Shown here in pieces: positions 1 to 63,731 of a DNA stretch of 64,000 bases. Under the pieces are notes generated by a model. It worked only from the letters and a program-made list of their open reading frames with translations. It had not been told where the DNA came from and ran no database searches. The position numbers and the translations under genes are program-made. Origin of the DNA: Dysgonomonadaceae bacterium PH5-43 (GTDB lineage Bacteria; Bacteroidota; Bacteroidia; Bacteroidales; Azobacteroidaceae). The stretch spans positions 1-64,000 of the forward strand of contig JARXWK010000015.1 of assembly GCA_029916745.1 (NCBI GenBank). The letters are read 5' to 3'. Numbering within the stretch: position 1 is the first letter of the stretch; each line of letters begins with the position of its first letter.

Positions 1-94
1 CCCGTCGTTCTTAGTAGAGAGACCTCGCCTATCTACTAAGAGAGAGAAGGGGTCTCTACTAAGAGAGACGACCCTAAGTGAAGCTTTGCATTTT
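1..94 (+). repeat. 23-base-period CTTAGTAG array, copy A (cut by window edge)
   Basis: Three complete units start at 10, 33 and 56, exactly 23 bases apart. The first has core CTTAGTAGA and the next two have the inverted core CTACTAAG. The last unit runs into the 16-base tail TGAAGCTTTGCATTTT at 79-94. Units and tail match the ends of the arrays at 19248, 34663 and 63503 (the last on the opposite strand). The array probably continues to the left of the window. The last unit can fold as AGGG-GTCTCT / AGAGAC-CCCT around a four-base ACTA loop. Function unknown. Confidence 0.9.
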
Positions 95-14205: not shown

Positions 14206-14313
14206 CGTATGTTTGTTTTACAGATTATTTATTCGTTCTGCAAATATACGATTAATAAACCTTTCGACAAACCCCTTCTGAGTGAAGTGTAACGCGGTTT
14301 TGAGGTTTAAGAA

Positions 14314-14445
14314 TTTTCGCACGTCTGTAAATAAATTTTCGCACGTCTGAAAAATTATTTTCGCACGTCTGAAAATATATTTACGCACGTACGAAAATTT
14401 ATTTGCGTCCGCATGAAAATTTATTTGCGTCCGTATGTAAATTTC
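14314..14445. repeat. Six-copy 22-base tandem repeat
   Basis: Six units of exactly 22 bases start at 14314, 14336, 14358, 14380, 14402 and 14424. Units 1-3 begin TTTTCGCACGTCTG. Unit 4 has TTTACGCACGTACG. Units 5-6 have TTTGCGTCCG. All continue into an AT-rich part such as AAAATTTA. Most units hold an inverted pair TTTTC/GAAAA. It lies between the flavodoxin-fold gene start and the pckA terminator. Sequence is unrelated to the CTTAGTAG arrays, but the period is nearly the same. Confidence 0.9.
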
Positions 14446-16245: not shown

Positions 16246-18627
16246 TTATCGTATAACCATTATTTTGGTTACTGCGCCGTCGCTCCCTTCGGAGTCTACA
16301 GCAAACACAAGATAAATTCCTGCTTTTACGGGTTCTCTATTAACGTCTGTGCAATTCCATATATATTGTCCGCCTATAGATGTTCCTTCTTTTATAAGAT
16401 TGCCGGCAACGTCGGTAATCTTAACTGTGGAGTTAGATTTTAATCCTGAGATTGTTACTTCGCTATTTCTTAACGGGTAAACAGGATTTGGAGAAACTGT
16501 TATGTCTGAATAATTCGACTTGCCGTCCATAGCTGCTCCTCTGAAAGAGCATAGTCCTTTGTCGGTTCCGATAAATAGTTCTCCGTTGTTATTGTTTATC
16601 GCTAATGCAGTAACATTGTCGGAGAGTATTGAGCTGTTCATAGTGTTGTAGTTTATTATAGATAGCCCACCGTCTGATTGGTCGAGCATATATATTCCGC
16701 TACCAGTTGTTCCAAACCATTTTCTATTGGCTCCGTCTACTGCTATTGCGGTAATCTTAACTCCATCAAGAGCGTAGTATCCTAATTGAGTATCGCTGTT
16801 GGTACCTACAATTCTATAGCAAAACTTATCTCTAACTTGTGTTGCGGAAGTAAAGTATATCGGACCATCGTTTGTTCCTACCCATACATTGCCGTTTAAG
16901 TCTTCGGTTACGCAATTGTATGCACTCGAAGAGAAAGAATTATTGGCTTGGTCGGTAAACGAACTTGCGAAGTAATAGCCATCGTCGGAGGTATTATCTA
17001 CAGTGCCGTTGTTTCCGTACACGTATATACCGACCTTGTTGTGTCGGTAAACATTACCCCACAGTACATTATTTTTGGTAATTATTAATTGATTAGTCCA
17101 AGCCGTAGTACCCGACACTTCGGGATTGTAGTAAGATGTCCAGGTATTATCATTCTTAAGAACCGATATGGTATTTGTAGCTTCAAGATTAGTCATATAA
17201 AGATTATTCTTGCTGTCGAAAGTAATTCCATCTATTCTTATAAATTGGTAAGGCCTAGAGCTGCTGGAAGATTCCAAAGAGCTATTGCCGTATGTGTGTA
17301 GTTTTATCAGCTCAAAATCGGTATTGGTTTTACTTAGTTCGTAAACTCCTTCTCCAAAACTCGAGACGAAATAATGATCGGTGTTGCGAGGATCTACAAC
17401 TGCCGACATAAGGTCTAAGCAATTTATATTGTTGACTCCTGTTTGTTCGCGAATAGCGGTTGTCATTGCTTTGTAATCGAGATTATACCACTTGTTGTTT
17501 TCGTAAACCATAAAAGTTCCTGCTACAGAGTATCTATCGCTTTTTCTGTTGCCCCCTGTAACTAAAAGCTTATTGTTGCTATAGTTAAGGGCGAATATAC
17601 TATTCCGTATCGGACTGTTTAGTGTTAAGTTTTCGGTTGTTATAGTGTATTCGGAAGAGTTTTTGCTCTTGGAAAAACCTATTATGCCATTCTCTAAAGC
17701 AGTTAGCCAATACTCTCCATTTTTCTCCGAAGCTATAGTCTCTCCTTTAATATCAATAGTCGTAAAATTATTTAGGTCTGAATAGAAAAGTATGTTATTG
17801 TTTTTAACTATAACTAATTCTCCATTTAATAACTTCATACTTTTGTGAGAGTCGTGTATCTTTTTTACTGATAGATTCTTATCGGCTATCCAAATAGCAT
17901 TGTCATCAGTAGCAAAAATCAAGTTGTCGTTGAATACTATTAATTGTTTGATTTGTTTGTCCTGTCCTGAAGTTCCGAAGCTAATCGATTGCTTTTTCCA
18001 GTTCTCGATGTCTTGCATATTTGACTTGGGGTTTGCCTTTAATAATCCAAGTTCCGAAGATGCGTACATATAACCTTGCCAAGAACAAAACGATGTTACT
18101 TTTTTGTTTAATGATTTCAAATCTATTTTTACTTCACTTCTGGTTAGGTCTAAAACTAAAGCTCCAAAGTTACCGGCTATATAGGCATAATCGTTTACAA
18201 AGTCGATGTTGTTTATGGTCTTATTTGTTACGGCAGGACTGTCTTTCAAGTCTGCAATATTTACAATGTCGTTTTCTCCATAATATAGGTCAATATTACC
18301 ATTTTCGTAAATAATAACTAAGCATTTCGCAACCGAATTATATCCTATCTTAACAATATTACAATCGTTAAGCCCATTCTCGACAGAAATAGTTTTAACT
18401 TCGTTGTATTCTGGAGAATAAGAAAGTAAAGAACCTCCTTCTTCTAAGCTTCCATCTCTGTTTGTTGCGCTTTTGTATATTGCAAAAACATTATTGGGAG
18501 TTGCTTCAACAGAAACTGCATTCTGATAAGACCTGTAAGACTTCCATTTGTTGCTTTGCGCTATTGCATTTGTGCTAAATACGAAAAAAACAACCAAAAC
18601 AAGTAGTATTGATTTATATGTTTTCAT
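16246..18627 (-). CDS. porZ: PorZ-like two-propeller T9SS protein
   Basis: 793 residues with a signal peptide ending AIAQ (about residue 24). The body consists of WD/Kelch-like blades characteristic of 'two-component regulator propeller' proteins, for example [26 protein letters not shown] and [13 protein letters not shown]. The last 85 residues form a T9SS-type C-terminal domain ([34 protein letters not shown]). Size and order match PorZ, the surface component of the type IX attachment complex that delivers A-LPS to PorU in Porphyromonas. The start overlaps the end of rdgB by 14 bases. A generic propeller cargo protein is the alternative. Confidence 0.75.
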
Positions 18628-19198
18628 CTAAAAAAGTTTTTAAGTTCTTAACGGCTTCTGCTCTATGGCTTATATTGTTCTTAATATCGTTGCCTAATTC
18701 AGCAAAAGTTTCGTTATATCCTTTAGGTACAAATATTGGGTCGTATCCAAAACCCTCACCACCTCTTTCTTCTTCTATTATTTGTCCTTCTATAATACCA
18801 TCGAAGCAATATTCTTTTTCTCCTTGTATTAAAGCAATAACTGTTTTGAAGTGACAATCTCGACTGCTCTTACCCTTTAGTTCTCTTAATAGTTTACGCA
18901 TATTGTCTTTAGGATCTTTGGCTTCACCTGCATATCGTGCAGAGTATATTCCAGGGGCATTGTCTAAAGCATAAACTTCCAGCCCTGTATCGTCAGCAAA
19001 ACAATCATAACCATAGTTGTTTTTAACGTATCGAGCTTTTATTAAAGCATTTTCTTCTAACGTAGAACCCGTTTCGGGTATGTCTTCTTCGCAATTAATA
19101 TCTTTTAGTGATAGTATATCGTAACTATTGCCAAGAATTTGGCGCACCTCCACTAACTTATGCTGATTGTTTGTAGCAAACACTAATTTATCTTTCAT
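18614..19198 (-). CDS. rdgB: XTP/dITP diphosphatase (non-canonical purine NTP pyrophosphatase)
   Basis: 194 residues. Ham1/RdgB family: [16 protein letters not shown] at the N-terminus for nucleotide binding, [22 protein letters not shown] for catalysis, and [13 protein letters not shown] in the C-terminal half. Removes inosine and xanthosine triphosphates from the nucleotide pool. First gene of an overlapping pair with the porZ-like gene and divergent from porE across repeat copy B. Confidence 0.95.
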
Positions 19199-19247
19199 AT
19201 TGTTTTAACGTAAAAGTTATCTAAAAATTATATACCTCATTTCTTAT

Positions 19248-19516
19248 CTTATTAAACACCCCTTACCGTTGTTACTATATACCCCTTGCCGCTCTTAGTA
19301 GATACCCCATGTCGCTCTTAGTAGAAACCCTTCCTCTCTCTTAGTAGATAGGTGAGGTGCTTCTTAGTAGATACCCGATGCCTCTCTTTATAGAACCGCC
19401 TAATCTCTCTTAGTAGAACCTCCCCGTCGTTCTTAGTAGAGACACCTCGCCTATCTAGTAACAACGACGAGGGGTCTCTTAGTAGAGAGGAGCCCCTAAG
19501 TGAAGCTTTGCATTTT
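19248..19516 (+). repeat. 23-base-period CTTAGTAG array, copy B
   Basis: Eleven units start every 23 bases at 19248, 19271, 19294, 19317, 19340, 19363, 19386, 19409, 19432, 19455 and 19478, followed by the tail TGAAGCTTTGCATTTT (19501-19516). Seven have the exact core CTTAGTAGA; the rest are degenerate (CTTATTAAA, GTTACTATA, CTTTATAGA, CTAGTAACA). The 14-base variable parts are mostly C-rich (ACCCC) or their complement. Units at 19363-19432 match copy C (34755-34824) almost base for base. The array fills the divergent region between rdgB and porE. The last unit folds as AGGGG..TCTCT-TAGT-AGAGA..CCCCT. Confidence 0.95.
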
Positions 19517-19688: not shown

Positions 19689-21662
19689 ATGAATAAACAT
19701 ACATATATATATATAGGTGTAGGAATATTAATATTGTTATTGATACACTCGTGCAAGTCGGCTAAGCTTAGTGATGCGGTGGAGCGTCACGAAAGAGGCG
19801 AATATTACGAGGCTGCACAAATATATCGTAGAGTTTATCAAAAAACTTCTTCTCAAAAAACTCACCTAAGAGGAAGTATCGCCTTTCATATGGCGGAATG
19901 TTATCGGGAAATCAACAATCCTAACAAGGCTCTTAGTGGTTATACGAATGCTATACGATACGATTATACAGACAGTACAATGTATCTGCATCAGGCTCAA
20001 ATGAATCATAAGCTTAGTAAATATGGCGATGCTATTAAGCAGTATGATAAGTTCTTAACAATAGACTCTTTGAGTTTATTGGCAAAGTACGGTATTGAAG
20101 GTTGCTTGCTATCTCCTGATTGGAAAAAGAATCCTACTCGATATGTTGTTAAGAAAATGGATAAATGGAACTCTCGTAACGGGGAGTTCTCGCCAATGCT
20201 TTACGGCGAAGAATTTGACCAACTATATTTTACCTCATCAAGGAAAGACGCTACTGGAGATGAAAATAGTTTAATAACAGGAGTGAAGAATAACGATTTC
20301 TTTGTTATTAAACAAGATGAGAAAAAGCAATGGATAAAGCCCGAAAAGATAGAAAGTGGTGTGAATACGGAAAACGATGAAGGAACTGCTTCTTTCACTG
20401 CCGATGGCTCTCAGATGTATTATACTTATTGTCATTCGGCAGTAGATGCTGATTATACTGCAGAAGTAAGAGTGTCGAGTAGGTCGGGTGCACAATGGAG
20501 TGCAGGAACGAGAGTAGAGATATTCAAAGATACCACATTTATGGCGGCACACCCAGCTGTAGGAGCTGATGGATACTTATATTTCGTTTCGGATATAATA
20601 GGAGGTTACGGAGGTAAAGATATTTATCGAGTACCTATAGATGGTATAGGTGTTTTGTTTCCTGAGAATTTGGGTCCTGAAATAAATACTTCAGGAGATG
20701 AAATGTTTCCTTATATGAGAGCCGACAGTGTTCTTTTCTTTTCGTCAGACGGACACCCTGGTATGGGAGGCTTAGATATATTTAGAGCTACAGAATATAA
20801 GGGTAAATGGAGAGTGGAAAATATGAAAGCTCCTATAAATAGTTCGGGAGATGATTTCGGTATAACCTTTAGAGGAGTTGAAGAATCGGGTTATTTCAGC
20901 AGTAATAGAAACGATGGTAGGGGTTCCGACCATATTTATTCGTTTGAGTTACCAGGTATTTATAGATATGTAGAGGGCTGGGTGTTAGATAAAGACGAAA
21001 ACGAAATAACAGGAGCTGCTGTTCGTATAGTGGGGAAAGACGGAACTAACGAACGTATATTTACTCGCGGCGATGGGACTTATTTTATGGAAGTTAAACC
21101 AGGAGTAGAGTATGTTATGATGGGAAGTGCGCCAGGTTATCTAAACCAAAAACAAACATTAACGGTGCCAGATGAAGAAAAAAGTGCTAACTATTATGTC
21201 GATTTTTATTTGTCGTCAATATCTAAGCCTGTGCTTATAGAGAATATATTTTATGATTTCGACAAAGCTACTCTTCGCTCTGAATCAAAAGAAGCCTTAG
21301 ACGAATTAATTGCAATGCTTGAAGATAATCCAAATGTTACTATAGAACTTATGGCTCATACCGACCGTAAGGGTAAAGATGAATATAATGATAATCTGTC
21401 TCAACGAAGAGCGCAATCGGTAGTCGATTATCTTATCCGATCGGGAGTTGAGGCTGATAGACTTACCGCTAAAGGATATGGCGAGTCAACGCCAGCTACA
21501 GTAAGTAAGAAAATAGCCGAACAGTATGATTTCTTGCCTGAAGGACAGTTGCTTGACGAAGCTTTTATCGAAACTCTTGATCCGGTACAACAAGCTCGAG
21601 CTGACCAAATAAACAGAAGAACAGAGTTTAGGGTTCTTTCAACAAATTACAAGTTGATGTAG
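19689..21662 (+). CDS. porE: PorE-like lipoprotein (TPR, PD40 propeller, CarboxypepD_reg, OmpA)
   Basis: 657 residues. The N-terminal hydrophobic segment ends in a lipobox-like IHSC with Cys22, so it is a probable outer-membrane lipoprotein. In order: TPR helices (about 30-150), a PD40/WD40-type propeller (about 160-415; blades include LYFVSDIIGGYGGKDIY and LFFSSDGHPGMGGLDIF), a carboxypeptidase-regulatory-like domain (about 425-505), and an OmpA peptidoglycan-binding domain (about 515-655; MAHTDRKGKDEYNDNLSQRR). This four-domain order and length match PorE, which anchors the type IX secretion machine to peptidoglycan. Monocistronic, downstream of repeat copy B. Confidence 0.85.
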   Translation: MNKHTYIYIGVGILILLLIHSCKSAKLSDAVERHERGEYYEAAQIYRRVYQKTSSQKTHLRGSIAFHMAECYREINNPNKALSGYTNAIRYDYTDSTMYLHQAQMNHKLSKYGDAIKQYDKFLTIDSLSLLAKYGIEGCLLSPDWKKNPTRYVVKKMDKWNSRNGEFSPMLYGEEFDQLYFTSSRKDATGDENSLITGVKNNDFFVIKQDEKKQWIKPEKIESGVNTENDEGTASFTADGSQMYYTYCHSAVDADYTAEVRVSSRSGAQWSAGTRVEIFKDTTFMAAHPAVGADGYLYFVSDIIGGYGGKDIYRVPIDGIGVLFPENLGPEINTSGDEMFPYMRADSVLFFSSDGHPGMGGLDIFRATEYKGKWRVENMKAPINSSGDDFGITFRGVEESGYFSSNRNDGRGSDHIYSFELPGIYRYVEGWVLDKDENEITGAAVRIVGKDGTNERIFTRGDGTYFMEVKPGVEYVMMGSAPGYLNQKQTLTVPDEEKSANYYVDFYLSSISKPVLIENIFYDFDKATLRSESKEALDELIAMLEDNPNVTIELMAHTDRKGKDEYNDNLSQRRAQSVVDYLIRSGVEADRLTAKGYGESTPATVSKKIAEQYDFLPEGQLLDEAFIETLDPVQQARADQINRRTEFRVLSTNYKLM

Positions 21663-34645: not shown

Positions 34646-34662
34646 TTTACTACTATTGCTAT

Positions 34663-34908
34663 CTTATAAGAACACCACAGTTTCTCTTAGTAGAAAGGTG
34701 AGCTGCTTCTTACTAGATAACCCTCGCCTTTGTTAGTAGAAAGGCGAGCTGCTTCTTAGTAGAGACCCGATGCCTCTCTTTATAGAACCGCCTAATCTCT
34801 CTTAGTAGAACCACCCCGTCGTTCTTAGTAGAGACACCTCGCCGATCTACTAAGAGAGAGGAGGGGTCTCTTAGTAGAGAGACGACCCTAAGTGAAGCTT
34901 TGCATTTT
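34663..34908 (+). repeat. 23-base-period CTTAGTAG array, copy C
   Basis: Ten units start at 34663, 34686, 34709, 34732, 34755, 34778, 34801, 34824, 34847 and 34870, each 23 bases apart, then the tail TGAAGCTTTGCATTTT (34893-34908). Variant cores are CTTATAAGA (34663), CTTACTAGA (34709), GTTAGTAGA (34732), CTTTATAGA (34778) and the inverted CTACTAAGA (34847). It begins 18 bases after the preceding terminator and points toward the accessory island. Confidence 0.95.
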
Positions 34909-41986: not shown

Positions 41987-43291
41987 ATGTTGTATTCTGC
42001 CAATTCTCCCAAGCGATACGCCGAACAAAAAAGCGTATTAGGTTTAACCTGCCCTCCTATAGATTGTGTTAAAATAGGAATTATCGGACTCGGAGTTAGA
42101 GCCACAAGAGCTATAAAACGCTTTATGCACATCGAAGGCGTAGAGATAAAAGCTATTTGCGATGTTGTTCCTCTTAACATAAGTCAGGCGCAAAGCATAA
42201 TATCTCAGCACAACAAACCTAAAGCCGACGAATATGTGGGCGATGATGCTTGGAAGCTTGTTTGCCAACGAACCGACCTACACCTTATATATATATGCAC
42301 CGATTGGAAAAGCCATACGCCAATGTCGGTCTACGCAATGGAATGCGATAAGCACGTAGCCGTAGAAGTGCCTGCCGCAACAACCGTCGACGAGTGTTGG
42401 CAGTTGGTAAACACAGCCGAAAGAACGCAAAAGCACTGTATGATGCTCGAAAATTGTTGCTACGATGCCTTCGAACTTACCACCCTCAATATGGTAAAAC
42501 AAGGCTTGTTCGGAGAAATAATACACGCCGAAGGAGCATACATTCACGACCTAAGAGAGCGCATACTATCGAACGAATTCGGAATGCGAAGAGGTGGTAA
42601 TTGGCAAACAAACTACAATGCCCAACATACCGGAAATCCTTACCCCACACACGGATTTGGTCCGATATGTCAAGCCCTAAACATTCATAGAGGCGATAAA
42701 CTGAAAAGACTTGTCTCTATGTCGTCCAAAGCAATAGGAATGACGCTCTATGCCGAAGAAACGTATGGACAAAACTCGCCCGAAGCCAATCAGAAATACA
42801 AACTCGGAGATATGAACACCACTCTTATCTACACCGAGCAGGGAAAAACCATACTCATTCAGCACGATATATCAAATCCGCGCCCATACAGTCGCATACA
42901 CCTGCTGAGCGGAACAAAAGGCTATACACAAAAATATCCGGTTAAGCAATTCGCATTTCACCCCAACCCCGATTACGTTCTTAACGAAAAGGAGATGAGG
43001 GATTTGCTGGAGCAATATCAACACCCATTCTTAACCACGTATGGAAAGCAAGCCAACGAAATATGTCCCGATCGCCCTTGGGATTTCATAATGGACTCAC
43101 GACTAATACATTGTTTGCGCAACGGATTACCATTAGATCAAGATGTTTACGATGCCGCCGAGTGGTCGTGCCTGGTAGAGCTTACCGAGGAATCAGTTCT
43201 GGGAGGAAATATCCCTATTGAGATACCCGACTTTACAACCCTTGAGTCGCAGGGCTTACGACCCTTGAGTCGCAAGGCTTGCAACCCTTGA
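41987..43291 (+). CDS. Gfo/Idh/MocA oxidoreductase, GH109-like
   Basis: 434 residues. N-terminal NAD-binding motif KIGIIGLGVRATRAI (about 27-41), CDVV after the second strand, and the EVPAATTVDECW segment (about 125). The C-terminal half has NWQTNYNAQHTGNPYPTHG and GPICQALNIHRGDKL, characteristic of the GH109 subgroup (NAD-dependent alpha-N-acetylgalactosaminidase). No signal peptide is evident, whereas many GH109 enzymes are Tat-exported. The last 18 codons are encoded inside a 23-base tandem repeat, giving an altered C-terminus (LESQGLRPLSRKACNP). Confidence 0.85.
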   Translation: MLYSANSPKRYAEQKSVLGLTCPPIDCVKIGIIGLGVRATRAIKRFMHIEGVEIKAICDVVPLNISQAQSIISQHNKPKADEYVGDDAWKLVCQRTDLHLIYICTDWKSHTPMSVYAMECDKHVAVEVPAATTVDECWQLVNTAERTQKHCMMLENCCYDAFELTTLNMVKQGLFGEIIHAEGAYIHDLRERILSNEFGMRRGGNWQTNYNAQHTGNPYPTHGFGPICQALNIHRGDKLKRLVSMSSKAIGMTLYAEETYGQNSPEANQKYKLGDMNTTLIYTEQGKTILIQHDISNPRPYSRIHLLSGTKGYTQKYPVKQFAFHPNPDYVLNEKEMRDLLEQYQHPFLTTYGKQANEICPDRPWDFIMDSRLIHCLRNGLPLDQDVYDAAEWSCLVELTEESVLGGNIPIEIPDFTTLESQGLRPLSRKACNP

Positions 43292-43350
43292 GTCGCAAGG
43301 CTCGGAACCCTTGAGTCGTAAGGCTCACGACTCAAGAGTCGCAAAACGCC
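43238..43350. repeat. Four-copy 23-base tandem repeat running through the GH109-like stop codon
   Basis: Units of exactly 23 bases start at 43238, 43261, 43284 and 43307. The common part is ACCCTTGAGTCGCAAGGCT, with four variable end bases. Each holds CCTT...AAGG inverted symmetry. A partial inverted unit, GACTCAAGAGTC (43329-43340), caps the array. Units 1-2 are coding, and unit 3 supplies the TGA stop at 43289-43291. Because 23 is not a multiple of three, each unit is read in a different frame. Confidence 0.9.
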
Positions 43351-50278: not shown

Positions 50279-50458
50279 GTTTCATACTAATGAAACAGGT
50301 TGTTTTGTTAGTATGAAACAAAGTGTTTCACCTATATGAAACAAGTGTTTTCAAACCGAGAAACGAATTATATCAAACCGCGAAACGGATCGTTTCAAAG
50401 TATGAAATGGATTATGTCTATGAAACAAAAAGCGAAACGGCTTGAAGTAGGCTGTTTC
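50279..50458. repeat. GAAAC/GTTTC array with 22-23 base period
   Basis: GAAAC starts at 50292, 50315, 50338, 50360, 50382 and (as GAAAT) 50404, spacings 23, 23, 22, 22 and 22. Further copies at 50422 and 50434 are out of phase. Several units carry GAAAC-N5-GTTTC (50315, 50382; GTTTTC at 50338), a 15-base inverted repeat. GTTTC at 50279 and 50454 bounds the array. No gene is supported in 50123-50550: a 69-codon plus-strand frame at 50336-50545 is made of the repeat itself. Confidence 0.8.
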
Positions 50459-50551
50459 GCTAATGTTGTTATGAAGTTAAAGTTTTACCGGACAGCAATA
50501 CAAAATAATAGAAAAAAGAGAAGTCTTGTGAAAATAAGTAAGTAGAGAAAA

Positions 50552-50583
50552 TAAAAAAACCGCTAAGATTATCTCTCAGCGGT
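50552..50583 (-). terminator. Terminator of the PepD-type dipeptidase gene
   Basis: On the minus strand, ACCGCTGAGAGA, loop, then TCTTAGCGGT followed by seven T. The GAAAC array begins about 90 bases beyond. Confidence 0.8.
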
Positions 50584-63486: not shown

Positions 63487-63731
63487 AAAATGCAAAGCTT
63501 CACTTAGGGTCGTCTTTCTACTAAGAGACCCCTTCTCTCTCTTAGTAGAAAGGCGAGGTCTCTCTACTAAGAAAGGCGGGGTGCTTTAAGTATTAAGGCG
63601 GGGAGGTTCTACTAAGAGCGACGTCGGGTCTCTACTAAGAACGGCAAGGGGTATCTAGTAAGAGCGGCGAGGGGTATCTACTAAAAAGCAACTCGCCTCT
63701 TCTAGTGGTAACAACAAGGTGTTCTTATAAG
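63487..63731 (-). repeat. 23-base-period CTTAGTAG array, copy D (minus strand)
   Basis: Reading the minus strand from 63731, ten units end at the tail TGAAGCTTTGCATTTT (63502-63487). Units occupy 63709-63731, 63686-63708, 63663-63685, 63640-63662, 63617-63639, 63594-63616, 63572-63593, 63549-63571, 63526-63548 and 63503-63525. All are 23 bases except 63572-63593, a degenerate 22-base unit. The unit at 63526-63548 is identical to copy A unit 33-55, including its inverted core. It lies 33 bases after the stop of the barrel-protein gene. Confidence 0.95.

Follow-up and report, generated by a model that had tools for sequence, protein, structure and literature searches.

Tandem arrays of a 23-base-pair unit form one intergenic, non-coding repeat family in a Dysgonomonadaceae bacterium

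What kind of element is a tandem array that keeps a rigid 23-base register and recurs several times between genes of the same contig? The question is raised by positions 19248–19516 of the window, by which we mean the whole stretch analysed here (64,000 nucleotides, positions 1 to 64,000 of contig JARXWK010000015.1 of Dysgonomonadaceae bacterium PH5-43). A first-pass annotation, made from the letters alone, had described four such arrays and listed a regulatory platform, a structured RNA, a protein-binding ladder and a mobile non-coding element as possible readings. We find that they belong together as a single interspersed, non-coding family, present in one Bacteroidales species and lying between its genes, and we set out below which account of their origin the evidence favours.

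The 23-base register and the extent of the family

Within the window, CTTAGTAGA occurs 22 times (shuffled sequence: mean 0.76, maximum 3), and all 17 core-to-core distances of 10–36 bases equal 23 when at most one mismatch to the 10-base core TCTTAGTAGA is allowed on either strand. The first pass had correctly seen a constant core, which is 10 rather than 9 bases long and is used in both orientations, its reverse complement keeping to the same 23-base spacing, as it does at 34846 and 63540, among other places. The intervening parts, described as 14 variable bases, are 13 bases long and not free; they belong to a few recurring types in a largely common order, and the recurrence of the same series between arrays is real. 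The near-identity claimed for 19363–19432 and 34755–34824 was confirmed (2 of 70 bases differ) and extends over 19363–19516 and 34755–34908 with 11 differences in 154 bases; whole arrays were copied, as had been proposed, and not just the core. CRISPR repeats measure about 24 bases or more and are separated by unique spacers; given a 10-base core and 13-base parts that recur in many arrays, we rejected that reading, in agreement with the first pass. The copies and related features of the window are as follows.

1–94, plus strand: right end of one copy, truncated at the start of the contig and retaining the last three cores and the right terminus AAGTGAAGCTTTGCATTTT
19248–19516, plus strand: array copy without leader; right-hand module 19375–19516; left limit approximate
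34663–34908, plus strand: array copy without leader; right-hand module 34767–34908
50482–50498, minus strand: exact copy of the IS4-type terminal repeat, TTGCTGTCCGGTAAAAC, closing a separate (GAAAC/GTTTC) array of 22–23 bp period
50501–50552, minus strand: fragment of the main family's leader, 94% over 52 bases
63487–63731, minus strand: array copy of a subfamily with one 22-base unit; right-hand module 63487–63627; left limit approximate

The coordinates first given for the three larger arrays stand, the last of them on the minus strand; the fourth proved to be the right end of a truncated copy. Two type IX secretion genes, PorZ-like (16246–18627) and PorE-like (19689–21662), flank a gene and the array at 18614–19516.

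The register holds across the genome, which comprises 2,537,984 bases (2.54 Mb) in 46 contigs. A genome-wide search with the core at 23-base spacing, proposed in the first-pass annotation, found 184 paired cores at a gap of 12–14 bases (93 forward, 91 reverse), compared with none for the backwards control, and the single core gave 486 matches compared with 11. From the genome loci and the window we took 58 distinct arrays, the basis of the array counts given here; the window copy at 1–94 stands outside them, since the whole of its short sequence also lies within another array. Among 388 gaps between neighbouring cores, 359 are multiples of 23, a further 25 fall short by one base (owing to a 22-base unit, in most cases the one that a subfamily has in common) and four are irregular (24, 37, 44 and 73). 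The periodic spacing first claimed by eye is thus borne out both in the window and genome-wide, and 57 of the 58 arrays span 7–12 units.

The right end is common to all 58 arrays and is best kept over its last ~140 bases, as judged from an alignment of 57 of them (L091 left out). Conservation drops sharply past ...GTGAAGCTTTGCATTTT, and fades on the left side of the arrays. The right end is not perfectly clean, as bases beyond it are common to subsets of copies and the flank sequence 20 bases beyond the array end is partly common to 32 of 58. Many right ends are followed without a gap by other interspersed repeats (AAAAACTAAAAGTTAA... and AACTAAGAGTGAAGAACTAAGA..., then GCGCGAAGCG-like), for example in L096, L103 and L095. 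A leader of ~240 bases lies left of the array in 19 of 58 cases, starting at one common place in 17 of these 19, where conservation again drops sharply. Genome-wide, the leader has at least 40 matches; among the matches listed, 38 are of at least 181 bases, one is of 116 bases and one is the 52-base fragment noted above, and some of the long ones lie outside the collected array loci. The closest array pairs are ~95–96% identical, so that no copy pair is very recent; a near-identical, recently moved pair was not found among the 58.

A model of the right-hand 142 positions recovered at least 75 full-length matches in the host genome, all with E<1e-24. Taking in 43 of the family's 45 genomes (the host and 42 others), the same model gave a single borderline match (E 0.009, 31.5 bits) and nothing else in the 42 others, under stricter filters. 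None of the 37 further genomes searched in the genus, nine of which reach 90% completeness with no more than 5% contamination, has the exact paired core; beyond the relatives there were three chance-like single-pair matches in unrelated organisms, and two more such matches in viral contigs. One array compared against plasmids and phages gave no match.

The arrays are intergenic and non-coding. When reading frames were called by a simple method, one array of the 58 shared more than 60 bases with a frame at least 80 amino acids long, which is probably spurious, and the frame next to one further array reached 21 bases into its right end. Neighbouring genes on both sides could be called for 52 arrays, and their arrangement (19 convergent, 22 tandem, 11 divergent) revealed no gene-orientation rule.

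Ends of the copies and a candidate transposase

MITEs are multicopy elements of 50–1000 bp without a transposase gene, with inverted repeats at both termini, a target site duplication and an autonomous partner whose ends match; the copies described here measure about 250–540 bp, contain no large frame and number at least 75. We consider it fairly probable that the arrays are a MITE-like interspersed repeat, non-autonomous and probably once mobile, that has a 23-bp minisatellite as its interior, and thus favour the mobile non-coding element among the options first listed. Under this account, copies would have spread as whole units through a transposase acting in trans, and would have diverged after insertion.

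The ends of the copies offer a candidate for that transposase. In 13 of 58 arrays, the left end agrees with the motif TATTGCTGTCCGRTAAAAC at no fewer than 14 of its 19 positions (reversed motif, 0/58), the 14/19 cases being borderline; one of this score begins at 34654, beside the window array at 34663–34908. The other 45 left ends fall below 14/19, and another common left module is present in seven arrays. This score is partly circular because some of the very copies scored had drawn attention to the motif; independent evidence comes from its occurrences elsewhere, with the insertion-sequence matches. At the right end, no full inverted terminal repeat was found in the 58 arrays (best 15/19, compared with 13 for the control), and a 10-base likeness, ACAGCAATAA at 9 or more of 10 positions, is present in six of 58 compared with none in the control. 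Visual inspection of 11 arrays revealed no recognisable target duplication.

Elsewhere in the host genome, the motif bounds a ~58-bp mini-element, whose two ends are alike but for one base, as well as a ~140-bp element and a GAAAC array of 22–23 bp period. The exact motif is present in six of 393 genomes of the order, the host included, and a transposase frame lies beside it in two of the five others (the remaining three being G063, G208 and G355). In one of the two (L193), the neighbouring reading frame carries DUF4372 and DDE_Tnp_1; in the other (L194), the motif stands at both ends, beside a frame with DDE_Tnp_1 only. The host genome itself has three transposase relatives, the best of which is 411 amino acids long without an internal stop. 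The 1409-bp element that carries it reads TATTACTGTCCGATAAAA at either end, which departs from the motif by a single base in 18, and is flanked by a 9-base target duplication, GTTGAGAAT. The mobilising enzyme would most likely be that of an IS4-type (DUF4372 + DDE_Tnp_1) element, the match of its terminal repeat being confined to the left ends of some of the arrays.

The units are semi-palindromic (TCT....AGA), which may let the core flip in place, plausibly via hairpin-driven template switching during replication. At the rightmost core position, 57 copies carry three forms (39 TCTTAGTAGA, 14 TCTACTAAGA and 4 TGTAGTAAGA), and the next position from the right has five. Any effects on neighbouring genes, such as termination, promoter activity or protein binding, would be incidental or acquired under the same account.

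Alternative explanations of the arrays

The period itself could be the primary feature, if some sequence-independent process of this lineage builds and keeps 22–23-bp semi-palindromic tandem arrays; we regard this as unlikely. At least four unrelated families of intergenic or near-intergenic arrays in the host genome have a period of 22–23 bp, represented by TCTTAGTAGA, GAAAC/GTTTC, TTTTCGCACGTATGAAAA and CCTTGAGTCGCAAGG, and the window, which was not picked for them, contains, besides the main family, three arrays of unrelated sequence and 22–23-base period (14313–14444, 43233–43344 and 50281–50460). Repeats of 22 and 23 nt have also been reported for P. gingivalis (PMC4596501). Six relatives (628 kb sampled) gave seven tandem-repeat rows with a 22–23-base unit, at 1.9–2.8 copies, a comparison that is not even-handed because the host's own loci were picked around arrays; among the 23 rows of 22–23 bases in those loci, eight are main-family variants, and rows and loci overlap. 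If the process were real, the period would come not from descent but from a length-setting machine, such as the footprint left by replication or recombination or a protein that requires a spacing of two turns.

The further arrays of the window differ in their make-up. The one at 14313–14444 consists of six copies of a 22-bp unit (ATTTTCGCACGTATGAAAATTT), with a similar array in L008 (1239–1340). At 43233–43344, five copies of a 23-bp unit with the hairpin CCTTG-AGTCG-CAAGG overlap the 3′ end of the frame 41987–43291. The array at 50281–50460 is made of GAAAC/GTTTC palindromes at 22–23-base spacing; it ends in the exact IS4-type terminal repeat, is adjoined by the main-family leader fragment, and has counterparts in L072, L093, L104 and L181. 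Two longer tandem repeats of 69 bp, or 23 codons (L104, 5–649; L108, 110–507), have the look of leucine-rich-repeat coding sequence.

Alternatively, the arrays could be DNA-binding ladders, with each semi-palindromic 23-bp unit a putative site at fixed helical spacing and the whole a nucleoid or boundary platform under selection. The near-perfect register, the narrow range of unit numbers (7–12 in all arrays but one) and the intergenic position of copies throughout the genome would suit such a platform. We nevertheless think it improbable, since core orientation and identity differ between copies at homologous positions, and relatives without detected copies manage without them; moreover, we know of no candidate protein. 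Gaps per substitution (0.19 and 0.24 in arrays, 0.09 in the leader) do not support a constraint on spacing; we do not lean on this comparison, as flipped cores produce spurious gaps in the alignments.

That many loci are transcribed into a structured RNA, a terminator or an attenuator is, in our estimation, quite unlikely. Folding energies lie well under those of dinucleotide shuffles (58 arrays, 25 shuffles each; mean z of -4.8 forward and -4.2 reverse, and z below -2 in 55 and 53 arrays, respectively), a result that follows from brick types being complementary to each other. Arms of the left-end hairpin of leaderless copies likewise co-vary modestly (9.9 compared with 9.2 pairs, reached by 13 of 5000 swaps), as scored in the 24 of 39 leaderless copies that have the motif used for this comparison, some picks probably not being the true end. 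Against this reading, a consensus fold computed from the 143 best-kept columns gives a covariation term of -0.1, with one of 17 pairs changed on both sides, and native arrays are no stabler than recombinants of their units (33 natives and 150 recombinants, P of 0.63 and 0.44; the 33 are the arrays with a single register, the other 25 being left out). A conserved fold, and with it the structured-RNA option of the first pass, is thus supported by neither the covariation nor the unit-recombination control. Furthermore, no Rfam family matched the window at gathering score, the only match at that score over five array loci was a tRNA in L096, outside the array, and the arrangement of neighbouring genes follows no rule.

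Finally, REP/BIME-type palindromes moved by a RAYT transposase share with the arrays the use of short palindromic units and a GTAG within the core, and are highly improbable here: the units are rigid 23-bp tandem bricks, unlike the 20–40-bp palindromes described for REP (PMC3733652), and we rejected the candidate because no Y1 tyrosine transposase (Y1_Tnp, PF01797) was found in the genome by a search that was positive in 5 of 14 control genomes.

Comparison with described repeat elements

Set beside described repeats, the MITE-like repeat with an internal minisatellite that we favour is not without parallel. Among the matches listed in our literature search, no comparable element was on record from hosts other than Porphyromonas. 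BOX elements are known from Streptococcus pneumoniae (PMC3049150). Their host belongs to a different phylum; they are likewise modular intergenic repeats with a middle module in variable number, their module lengths and sequence differing from those of the arrays. Passages in PMC5771137 and PMC10969869 added nothing on the present host.

The first-pass annotation knew of no described element with this design, a statement that is not supported because BrickBuilt of P. gingivalis (PMC4596501) has the same one, that of a MITE in which a leader and a tail enclose a 23-nt minisatellite. Our family resembles it in design and is not wholly new, the two being likened by description. BrickBuilt (found also in P. 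gulae) and the arrays have in common an intergenic, non-coding nature, direct 23-nt tandem repeats without spacers, predicted long stem-loops, a restricted host range and, in part, leader and tail flanks and terminal repeats resembling those of a resident insertion sequence. In the present genome, the spacer-free 23-nt repeat and the intergenic position are both observed, and leader and tail may have their counterparts in the leader (19/58) and the common right end (58/58).

Several features set the two apart, BrickBuilt being taken as described in PMC4596501. The terminal repeat is IS4/DUF4372-like here, at one end and in a subset, and IS5-like (GAGACCTTTGCA) in BrickBuilt; the latter repeat was tried on our arrays and rejected (at least 10/12 in two of 58, compared with five of 58 for the reversed control). 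Copies number at least 75 here and 19 for BrickBuilt, whose arrays have 1–22.8 units compared with 7–12 in 57 of our 58. A common series of brick types together with orientation flips is a further difference. MITE464/PgRS of P. gingivalis, again likened by description from that source (PMC4596501), is also a MITE with internal tandem repeats, of 41 nt compared with 23 here, and carries two internal-repeat types under similar terminal repeats, reminiscent of the GAAAC array in the window. Taken together, these comparisons suggest that the BrickBuilt design, a MITE combined with a 23-bp minisatellite, extends beyond Porphyromonas and can be paired with the ends of different insertion sequences, and the present family, with at least 75 copies, a common brick order and flips in place, provides a good data set on the inversion and homogenisation of hairpin bricks.
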